NCBI GenBank assembly: GCA_026692735.1
Contig: JAPLOD010000705.1
Coordinates: 1 to 44,064 of the forward strand
Length of the DNA: 44,064 nucleotides
Source of the DNA: Planctomycetota bacterium
GTDB lineage: Bacteria; Planctomycetota; SZUA-567; H5-PLA8
Direction: 5' to 3'
Shown: piece by piece, positions 24,743 through 27,586 of the stretch
How the letters are laid out: each line of letters begins with the position of its first letter
Position numbering within the stretch: position 1 is the first letter of the stretch
Made by a program: the position numbers and the translations under genes
Notes under the pieces: generated by a model
What the model saw: only the letters and a program-made list of their open reading frames with translations
The model's database searches: none
Told to the model about the DNA's origin: nothing

Positions 24743-24876
24743 CGCGGGAGCCCTCCTCACTCATAATCAACGCGGCGCAGGGGGGAATGTCAAGCGGCTC
24801 TGGGGGACGAACGCGGCGTCGGGACGGGGCAGTTGTTCGCCTGAACTGCGCTCCGGAAAGGCAATTGCTGTGGTCT

Positions 24877-24906
24877 GTCACCGAATTTTGTGTCACCGGA
24901 TTTTGG
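24877..24906. repeat. 15-nt tandem direct repeat at edge of the low-GC cassette
   Basis: GTCACCGAATTTTGT followed directly by GTCACCGGATTTTGG (2 mismatches in 15). The second copy overlaps the last codons and stop of the HEPN-like gene. It could mark an insertion boundary; no matching copy was found at the other edge. Confidence 0.65.
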
Positions 24907-25354
24907 GCGGGGATGAGACACCGTGAACTGTCTGAAGATCCCGCTGCACGACTGTTGCCAAGTTCAGTACCCCATACTTCTGGAGTTCATCTCGGAGGTC
25001 CGTTGCGTTTCCATACTCGTCTTCTGCCTTGACTTGGGAAATGGCTGAAGCAAGGTGGTAATCGGCCTTTACTCGCGCCAATCTGAGGTTCTCCAACGCT
25101 TCCCCCAGTTCCTGTATTTTGGCGTCGCTTGAGCCCTTCAGGACCATCGGCAGCTTCTCATGAACGAGGTGATCTTTCTTCCGAGCCAACGAGACACTCT
25201 GAAGTAGTATGAGCGGCATCGTCTTCAGGAATTCCTCGCCTATCATCCAGTAGACCGCGTAGTACGATCGGCTGATAGACGACCGCCAGTCTGCTTCTCG
25301 TATGCCATTCCGCCAAAGGTCTTCCGCAGTATGCAGAAACTCGAGCGGCTGCAT
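24893..25354 (-). CDS. HEPN-like protein (third gene of accessory cassette)
   Basis: A 153-residue all-helical protein. RSSISRSYYAVYWMIGEEFL (about 24-43) is the characteristic HEPN helix (S/A-I-x-R-A-Y-Y-A-V), and LENLRLARVKADYHLASAI in the C-terminal half has the R-x5-H spacing (RVKADYH) that fits the HEPN Rx4-6H ribonuclease motif. HEPN proteins are often toxins, RNases of defence systems, or scaffolds. Here it is the last of three tightly spaced genes (12 nt after the preceding one). Catalysis is not proven by the motif; the UPF0332-like group it resembles includes inactive members. Confidence 0.7.
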   Translation of the reverse strand: MQPLEFLHTAEDLWRNGIREADWRSSISRSYYAVYWMIGEEFLKTMPLILLQSVSLARKKDHLVHEKLPMVLKGSSDAKIQELGEALENLRLARVKADYHLASAISQVKAEDEYGNATDLRDELQKYGVLNLATVVQRDLQTVHGVSSPPKIR

Positions 25355-25366
25355 GGGCCACGAGCC

Positions 25367-26095
25367 TCAGAGATCGCGCAACACTCCGACCAACGGGTAG
25401 ATTCTTGAACCTGATGACCGAAGCGGGGCAAAGAAGTCCTGTGTGGCGCGCCTGAACGCCTGGCGGTCCATGCCACATCTGACGGTGAACACGATTCTCT
25501 CGCCGCCCTCGCCCTCGTCCTCGGGACTGGTGATAAGCTCGACTGTGACCATCTCGGGGTTGTTGAAAGCCTTGACGAGTTGATCCTTGACCTGCGTGAA
25601 TTCATCCTCCAGCCCTTGGCGTTTCACGAAATCTTCCGCCTCGGAAGCGACATCAAATGTCGTCTGCGGGCTGGTTGAGAGCCACGACCCAAGAAGTCGG
25701 AGGGCCGCATCCAGATCAGCCTGTGGTGCCTGAAATGCCTCGGTGACCCAAAAACGCACCGCCAAAGATGGTTCCGCCTGGATTTCCCGACTGGCCCACG
25801 TTAGCGGCCAACTCGCCGGAATGTGAACTTGCTGCTCAGCCCAGCTTGCCTTGATCGGTTCGTTAACATTCCTCCTTGCCGCCAGGCGGGCCTCTGGGGC
25901 GCCCTGCTCGATCAGCACTTCGGTTGAACTCGCGGTGGTTCTGCTGCCCAAATGCGAAGGGATATCGGTTGGCGATGGAATCTTCTGAAAGCCAGCGTAT
26001 GCCCAATACTGCACGTCCGCCTGTTCTTTCGGCGTCCGCGGGGGCCGCGCGCGGGTAATATCCGAATGTCTTGGCAGCGCCACAGTATCTAACAT
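25367..26095 (-). CDS. unrecognised protein (second gene of accessory cassette)
   Basis: The 242 residues start at ATG 26095, 3 nt after the stop of the upstream gene. There is no signal peptide or TM helix. The first 80 residues are Pro/Arg/Thr-rich and look disordered (ITRARPPRTPKEQADVQYWAYAGFQKIPSPTDIPSHLG); the middle has LIEQGAPEARLAARRNVNEP; the C-terminal half is alpha/beta (LDAALRLLGSWLSTSPQTTFDVASEAEDFV, VTVELITSPEDEGEGGERIVFTVRCGMDRQAF). I know no family for it. Its position between two cassette genes suggests a shared job. Confidence 0.7.
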   Translation of the reverse strand: MLDTVALPRHSDITRARPPRTPKEQADVQYWAYAGFQKIPSPTDIPSHLGSRTTASSTEVLIEQGAPEARLAARRNVNEPIKASWAEQQVHIPASWPLTWASREIQAEPSLAVRFWVTEAFQAPQADLDAALRLLGSWLSTSPQTTFDVASEAEDFVKRQGLEDEFTQVKDQLVKAFNNPEMVTVELITSPEDEGEGGERIVFTVRCGMDRQAFRRATQDFFAPLRSSGSRIYPLVGVLRDL

Positions 26096-26098
26096 GGA

Positions 26099-26752
26099 TC
26101 AGGTTCCTAAGCCCAGAACGGCGTTGATGCGCTCGCGGACTACCTGATAGTTATCGGCAAAACGGGAAAGGATCTCGACGGCTCTCTCCAGCTTCTTATC
26201 CGTGGGCAGGTCATAATTGCAGTTGGCGTTCACCAGCACGCCAGAACGTTCTTTCTGGTCCCCGCGCTTGACTGTACCGGCATCAACACGAAGGCGGAGA
26301 GCCCCGCCGACGAGGTCAAATAAGAACCTCAAGCCAATCGCCTTTGGGGCAAATCTTCCCTGCCACGAGTCATCCGGTTTCAGGAAGCGCTCTAGAAGCC
26401 GTCGTTCCGCCGATTCCGACGGAACGAACGCAGTGAAGTTGATGCCGACGGCCGTGTACCTCACGTGGGGTAACTCTGTGATGTATTTTGCGGCAATCTG
26501 GGGCGCTGGAGATTTTTCCGGTTGATCCCCTGGCTTGTTGTCTATCACCTGAAGTCTGCCGATCTCGACGGACATAATGAAGTCCTGACCGTTGTATTTC
26601 ACAACCGCGACGGGCGGTGTGCAGATGACTTCCGACGCCTTCCACTCCTTCGGAACGATGCTGCGGCTCTCAAGGAAGGCCGGATGCAGGATTGTCGGGT
26701 TGTGCCCTTCAGCGGCTACCACCGCAGAGGCGTTCAGGAATTCCAGTCCCAT
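26099..26752 (-). CDS. unrecognised protein (first gene of accessory cassette)
   Basis: The 217 residues start at ATG 26752. Sequence landmarks: MGLEFLNASAVVAAEGHNPTILHPAFL, VICTPPVAVVKYNGQDFIMSVEIGRLQVID, YITELPHVRYTAVGINFTAFVPS, GLRFLFDLVGGALRLRVDAGTV and VLVNANCNYDLPTDKKLERAVEILSRF. The arrangement (a 'this ligand's best basis' strand followed by P-H-V-R-Y-T-A-V-G-I-N) recalls sporadic proteins of the TIGR04255 kind in layout only; I do not assign it. GC is visibly lower than in flanking genes and it heads a three-gene operon with its own promoter-like boxes 12 nt upstream of the ATG. Confidence 0.7.
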   Translation of the reverse strand: MGLEFLNASAVVAAEGHNPTILHPAFLESRSIVPKEWKASEVICTPPVAVVKYNGQDFIMSVEIGRLQVIDNKPGDQPEKSPAPQIAAKYITELPHVRYTAVGINFTAFVPSESAERRLLERFLKPDDSWQGRFAPKAIGLRFLFDLVGGALRLRVDAGTVKRGDQKERSGVLVNANCNYDLPTDKKLERAVEILSRFADNYQVVRERINAVLGLGT

Positions 26753-26763
26753 GATGACAGTCT

Positions 26764-26791
26764 ACTATAGAAGGCGGCCGAAGTCATTCAA
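26764..26791 (-). promoter_or_regulatory. putative promoter of the three-gene cassette, near-leaderless
   Basis: On the minus strand TTGAAT (26791-26786), 16-nt spacer, TATAGT (26769-26764). The -10 lies 11 nt before the ATG, so transcription would start close to the start codon; no Shine-Dalgarno is present, which fits a leaderless mRNA. Confidence 0.45.
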
Positions 26792-26898: not shown

Positions 26899-26925
26899 AC
26901 GGGCGAAACCGGGCCGGCCCATCGC

Positions 26926-26962
26926 GGGTTTCAGGTTACAAGTTTCATGTTACAGGTTAACG
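26926..26962. repeat. heptamer tract, aggttac/aagtttc family
   Basis: Units gggtttc aggttac aagtttc atgttac aggttaa, alternating two words. A second copy of the family is at 27321-27351. Confidence 0.85.
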
Positions 26963-27003
26963 GCACGGGATGCTTGTGAGCCCGCGCTCGTTACGGTGAG
27001 CAG

Positions 27004-27037
27004 GCAGGATGCCTGCGCTACAGCCGGCTCTGAGCCG
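27004..27037. repeat. two adjacent short GC hairpins
   Basis: GCAGG-ATG-CCTGC (27004-27016), followed by gcta, and CGGCTC-T-GAGCCG (27025-27037). Same class as 27427-27492. Confidence 0.6.
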
Positions 27038-27287
27038 CGACCGTGAGGGAGCGGTTCCCGGACCGCTTGCTAACGCGCGCGGCTCGAAACAGCGCCGGCG
27101 GTACAAACATAGCATGGGCTGCCAGGCCATGAGGGGACTCGCGCGTGTGACACGAGTTCCTGACGACGTGCTACGGCGTATTTCGCGGGGGCGCTGCAGG
27201 GGAAGTGTTGCCATGCCACGAACAGCGAGAAGGCGGGTGGGGAATGCACGAAGCACATGATGTGCAGTCCTGGACAGCAAAAACGAA

Positions 27288-27317
27288 CCGCCAAGACGCC
27301 AAGAACGCCAAGAAAAG
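27288..27317. repeat. 9-nt-period tract cgccaagaa
   Basis: ccgccaaga cgccaagaa cgccaagaa. It gives the false ORF peptide LGVLGVL on the minus strand. Confidence 0.8.
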
Positions 27318-27320
27318 AAA

Positions 27321-27351
27321 TGGTTACAGGTTTCAAGTTACAGGTTTCAGC
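27321..27351. repeat. heptamer tract, ggttaca/ggtttca family
   Basis: tggttac aggtttc aagttac aggtttc ag. Same words as 26926-26962. Confidence 0.85.
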
Positions 27352-27426
27352 GCCACGCGAGGAACAGCACGATGTGCGTTTCTGGACACAGGGGGCGAAG
27401 GGGAACACGGAAGAGCGGCGGGGATG

Positions 27427-27492
27427 ACGCGGGCGAGACGCCCGCGCTACAGCCGGCAAGATGCCGGTGGTACAATGCCAGCGAGACGCCGG
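27427..27492. repeat. cluster of three GC hairpins upstream of argG
   Basis: CGCGGGCG-AGA-CGCCCGCG then ctac (27427-27449); CCGGC-AAGAT-GCCGG then tggtac (27452-27472); GCCAGCG-AGA-CGCCGGC with one mismatch (27476-27492). The AGA or A-x-GAT loops and the CTAC-like 3' flank recur in the hairpins at 33399-33450. Confidence 0.75.
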
Positions 27493-27586
27493 CGGCACAG
27501 CGAGTGCGGTATCGCACTTGAAATCCGGCCTGTCGTGCCGCATGGTTTCCACCTTCGGCATTCAGGGGATAAGGAGCAGACGAGCC

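Follow-up and report, generated by a model that had tools for sequence, protein, structure and literature searches.

Tripartite toxin-antitoxin modules include the TAC systems, whose antitoxin has an extension that is bound by a chaperone (PMC5105189). In CmdTAC, the capsid protein of a phage pulls the chaperone off, followed by degradation of the antitoxin and release of the toxin (PMC11618068). HEPN toxins occur beside a partner protein in HEPN-MNT (type VII) modules. In AF0298-like HEPN proteins the histidine of the HEPN motif is lost while the arginine is kept, and an upstream histidine provides an alternative active site (PMC3710099). The cassette analyzed here consists of three genes, designated A, B and C. 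It resembles TAC systems (Mtb HigBA1-SecB-TA, CmdTAC) in its gene number, in a third protein that accompanies different toxin-antitoxin pairs and in an extended antitoxin. In contrast to TAC, the third protein A has no SecB match, the extension is N-terminal rather than C-terminal (ChAD), and far more toxin families are found in modules headed by A or by the family TIGR04255. As in HEPN-MNT, a HEPN protein adjoins a partner; however, Pfam gave no nucleotidyltransferase match to B, and with no MNT in B an HEPN-MNT module was rejected.

The cassette is located on the minus strand of the window, the whole stretch of 44,064 nucleotides of planctomycetal DNA that was analyzed. Its features are as follows:

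26099..26752, minus strand: gene A, ORF of 217 aa, the constant "head" protein of the module
25367..26095, minus strand: gene B, ORF of 242 aa
25655..26095, minus strand: N-terminal extension of B (approximately residues 1-147), hypervariable, putative contact with A
25367..25654, minus strand: C-terminal, antitoxin-like domain of B (approximately residues 148-242)
24893..25354, minus strand: gene C, HEPN protein of 153 aa, predicted toxin
26791-26764, minus strand: promoter-like hexamers TTGAAT-16-TATAGT just 5' of A, not significant
24876..24905, no strand assigned: 15-nt tandem repeat (TRF score 53; 2.0 copies, 93%)

The initial annotation described three tightly spaced genes with a GC content below that of the flanks, and both statements were borne out. 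The genes are separated by 3 nt (A-B) and 12 nt (B-C), and the GC content of the trio is 56.9% compared to 65.1% in the rest of the window. None of 1925 equal-sized windows outside the trio had a GC content as low, and GC3 of the trio genes is 0.63-0.67 versus 0.77-0.93 in neighboring genes. The promoter assigned to the cassette is not supported: the hexamers exist, yet one match in the real sequence compares with 0.6 expected from shuffles, which is chance level. The tandem repeat reported at one edge is present, but comprises only two copies, overlaps the 3' end of C and is trivial. A gene-poor stretch (~830 bp) with dispersed short repeats GTTTCAGGTTACA and GACGCCGGCGGTACA (window 26920-27510) lies between A and argG. 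In an empty-site comparison, the gene neighbors of the window were not syntenic in the relatives examined.

Two of the products had been annotated as lying outside known families; indeed, neither A nor B matched any family in Pfam, NCBIfam, PADLOC or PHROG. The A family has no name. Searches with A identified relatives in the window's own phylum and on cyanobacterial plasmids. An alignment-based search of approximately 85,000 species genomes identified A homologues at 74 loci in Planctomycetota, Nitrospirota, Acidobacteriota, Myxococcota, Pseudomonadota and other groups. When the same trio was sought in other genomes, it was found to recur. With cyanobacteria and a group of Nitrospirota left out, 53 of 59 A loci carry a B-C cassette of two closely spaced genes behind A, as scored by a fixed rule. 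Among control ORFs of 200-400 aa from the same loci only 6 of 103 were followed by such a cassette (Fisher p 7e-29). The gene order is A, then B, then C, mostly overlapping or a few bases apart. No B-C cassette was present behind any of the 17 cyanobacterial A genes or the seven of the Nitrospirota group, suggesting that A has another role there. On cyanobacterial plasmids, a solitary A-family gene lies directly 5' of a gene of very large size that encodes CARDB or Ig domains.

The gene in the C position is exchanged between loci. A HEPN gene follows A at 17 non-redundant loci. Elsewhere, Pfam identified PIN, HNH, metallo-beta-lactamase and retropepsin-like aspartyl protease products in this position, and several families without a name were labeled by motif ("SVNW", "SVDR", "QGD", "QTCD"), in addition to HEAT-like pairs. 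The retropepsin-like protease (Pfam RVP, E 7e-7; locus L096) would be an unusual toxin. Clusters of B follow clusters of C, with one B cluster common to SVNW and SVDR. On the A tree, all C labels together require 18 changes, compared to a minimum of 12 and a mean of 33 after shuffling. HEPN alone requires six, and branches with good support impose at least three of these. The window's A falls into a clade of six (SH-aLRT 99) whose other members are four with QGD and one with a HEAT-type C. This scatter of C labels over the A tree indicates that A and the toxin module have recombined. The initial proposal is partly supported. The trio is a toxin-antitoxin-like accessory system that includes a HEPN protein, and it recurs elsewhere, but the system is not HEPN-specific: A is the constant component and C is interchangeable.

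The product of C in the window scores poorly against Pfam HEPN (E 0.006, short of the cut-off), a Thermus relative passes this model (27.4 bits versus a cut-off of 22), and C also matches phrog_5176 (E 4e-14), which carries no functional annotation. The initial annotation had pointed to a HEPN helix and an R-x5-H motif. The helix S-I-S-R-S-Y-Y exists and is conserved. The window's C does have R-x5-H, yet the histidine of this motif, H100, is kept in only 2 of 17 relatives. Residues R24, R29, Y31, H65, L87, R94, D98 and Y99 are invariant, R94 and H65 being found in 17 of 17. Judged by its sequence, C is an AF0298/UPF0332-like HEPN protein (Pfam HEPN, PF05168): the arginine is kept (R94), the histidine of Rx4-6H is absent and a conserved histidine lies upstream (H65). 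Because C shows this AF0298-like state, RNase activity via an alternative site formed by H65 and R94 is plausible by analogy. In contrast to AF0298/UPF0332-type proteins, C has B rather than a minimal nucleotidyltransferase as its partner and sits in a three-gene module. A housekeeping HEPN protein was considered and rejected, as the occurrence is sporadic and A is missing from the other six genomes that belong to the window's family. At one locus two HEPN genes of the C family are arranged in tandem, and the genome to which this locus belongs (G186) has six copies.

Comparison of six B classes revealed a protein of two parts. Identity is approximately 0.1-0.2 in the N-terminal bins (0.42 in one bin) and 0.2-0.66 in the C-terminal bins; thus, a conserved, antitoxin-like C-terminal part of about 95 aa is preceded by a hypervariable extension. 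Head-associated B proteins comprise 177-279 aa. In four HEPN pairs that lack a head gene the partners are only 103-112 aa long, the start of one having been chosen by hand within a longer frame. These headless partners align solely with the C-terminal part of B (E 1e-11 to 1e-14 for the closer classes, 2e-4 for one pair), and residues 147-223 of the window's B match a short partner of 103 aa with E 7e-4. A further partner of 94 aa (E 1e-38) was set aside, since it adjoins a truncated HEPN gene and may be decayed. Since headless partners consist of the C-terminal domain only, the B extension accompanies the head. An extension missing from two-gene relatives is a TAC-like feature, although it is N-terminal, unlike ChAD. 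The extensions are not strongly hydrophobic; a hydrophobic 13-mer was found in 11 of 45. From their architecture and co-inheritance, B and C would form a type II toxin-antitoxin pair in which B is predicted to neutralize C. Comparative genomics reveals a conserved operon with an interchangeable C, a B matched to C and a B extension in head-associated modules.

A second protein family, TIGR04255 (NCBIfam sporadTIGR04255), is the first gene of the same kind of three-gene operon. It was detected in 58 of 343 Planctomycetota genomes, and the window's own genome harbors three copies, followed by QTCD, HEAT-type and QGD products in the C position. The C clusters SVNW, QGD, QTCD and PIN, as well as HEPN in Thermus, are common to A and TIGR04255 operons, and further C products in TIGR04255 operons are MazF/PemK, PIN and zeta; a HicA-like product matched weakly (E 0.03). 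When the short-antitoxin comparison was extended to the SVNW toxin, 294 genomes yielded just two loci, both located on a contig where, by coordinates, a TIGR04255 gene lies close upstream. On the Thermus brockianus plasmid pTB1, TIGR04255 is followed by a B protein with a HEPN-type antitoxin tail and then by an unannotated HEPN gene (L206:4309-4701). A Vibrio parahaemolyticus plasmid encodes TIGR04255, a hypothetical protein and a zeta toxin (L207:158-2105).

The structures of both head proteins were modeled with AF2. The A model (pLDDT 96.5) displays a curved sheet that is well ordered and accompanied by helices, and no residues of evident catalytic function; the most conserved columns of the family are N18, P19, L27, G103 and N105. 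For TIGR04255, a protein encoded in the window's own genome was modeled (pLDDT 94.2). The two models, compared by the order of their secondary-structure elements, show an identical series of 14 (E H E E E E H E H E E E H H). Their fold neighbors are likewise shared and comprise McsB/guanido-kinase, AdoMetDC and TBP chains; the best ones, McsB/arginine kinase catalytic domains, reach Z 8.6 for A and 8.0 for TIGR04255, a range that may be chance. Pfam gave no SecB match to A, and SecB is missing from the fold-neighbor lists, which cannot exclude SecB kinship; the reading of A as a SecB chaperone was set aside. TIGR04255 thus resembles A as an operon head, in its C families, in its order of elements and in its fold neighbors. 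The NCBIfam model of TIGR04255, which requires more than 30 bits for membership, did not match A at E<=10, and the profiles of the two families are collinear with only weak similarity (hhalign E 0.003, probability 10%). We take A and TIGR04255 to be putative distant relatives, and A is not filed as a TIGR04255 member.

We consider it somewhat probable that the trio is a tripartite toxin-antitoxin module in which A controls B through the B extension. C would be a HEPN toxin that arrests the cell once released, and the last ~95 residues of B would neutralize it. The hypervariable N-terminal extension of B would serve as a handle for A, a putative TIGR04255-like binding protein that would hold and stabilize B. 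Withdrawal of A, either through titration by a product of phage or stress or through loss of the DNA, would then cause B to fail and C to be freed. We infer each of these steps, namely toxicity of C, neutralization by B, contact between A and the extension, and the trigger. The main rival is direct sensing by A within a standing, inactive A-B-C complex, with B as a mere bridge and a phage or stress ligand on A activating C without degradation of the antitoxin. A single head type paired with many effectors through a variable connector would suit a sensor, as would the ordered curved sheet predicted for A. However, the C-terminal domain of B occurs alone with HEPN in two-gene pairs, for which direct neutralization is the simpler explanation, and we regard sensing in a standing complex as rather unlikely. 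An ordinary two-gene HEPN toxin-antitoxin pair, with A as an unrelated co-transcribed gene, has the existence of headless HEPN pairs in its favor. It is already contradicted by the 53 of 59 loci, from many phyla and with many toxin families, in which A precedes the cassette, and is very improbable.

Two further readings assign A a different activity. A might be a transcriptional autorepressor that replaces the usual DNA-binding domain of type II antitoxins, leaving B and C as a plain pair. In most B proteins a DNA-binding domain is not recognized, and the fold neighbors of A include TBP chains. A proteins are nevertheless acidic for the most part (their net charge averages -5.3 and is positive in 5 of 61; the window's A +2), which makes a DNA-binding repressor less likely; the mean net charge of TIGR04255 is -2.4. 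Some B proteins in TIGR04255 operons moreover seem to carry an HTH of their own, as read from the sequence, and a repressor leaves the long B extension unexplained. We consider autorepression improbable. Even less credible is an enzymatic A with a guanido-kinase-like fold, which would control toxicity by modifying C or B in the way that MNT acts on HEPN in type VII systems. The McsB/arginine kinase domains are its best fold neighbors, but the Z-scores lie within the chance range, and conserved charged residues that could form a catalytic set do not stand out in A; such an enzyme seems highly unlikely. Control of B by A through the extension remains the reading that we prefer.

A constant head together with an antitoxin and an exchanged toxin is apparently an undescribed kind of module that is widespread in bacteria. 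A search of mainly open-access literature on tripartite toxin-antitoxin systems returned TAC and HipBST and nothing like an A-headed module. No mention of TIGR04255 was found in open-access papers, and a prior description is possible. What we rate as new is a third component that is unrelated to that of TAC and unusually promiscuous, within a known tripartite toxin-antitoxin architecture. A and TIGR04255 may even constitute one head superfamily that places HEPN, PIN, MazF, zeta, HNH, metallo-beta-lactamase, retropepsin-like and unnamed toxins under a common trigger, e.g. phage; we hold this idea tentatively, as somewhat less than probable. If true, the superfamily would represent a class of third-component toxin-antitoxin systems unrelated to SecB, with a toxin range beyond the known TAC families. 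Should the head act as a sensor or chaperone, a single fold could account for the way in which unrelated toxins share a common trigger. The model offers a testable role for TIGR04255 and for the unnamed A family, predicts many toxin-antitoxin modules that two-gene searches misread or miss, and the C position supplies several unnamed toxin candidates.

The initial annotation suggested looking for proximity to defense genes. Such enrichment is weak: the surroundings of 45 loci contain a few restriction-modification genes and otherwise mostly housekeeping genes. A search for phage homologues of A by tblastn gave nothing significant; a microvirus match (E 2) lies antisense to genes that are annotated there and was dropped. 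Scanning IMG/VR for A alone gave no match, and scanning it for HEPN yielded two viral contigs with A-B-HEPN. Foldseek comparison of A with predicted viral proteins returned one good match, A0A515MGR4 (E 1.5e-9, TM 0.65). A P2-like Vibrio phage (L012:3214-4408) and a group of IMG/VR contigs (L108-L118) encode a C-family HEPN protein together with a partner of ~260 aa and no A. The N-terminal part of this partner has a TPR-like look, and it is perhaps another type of head.
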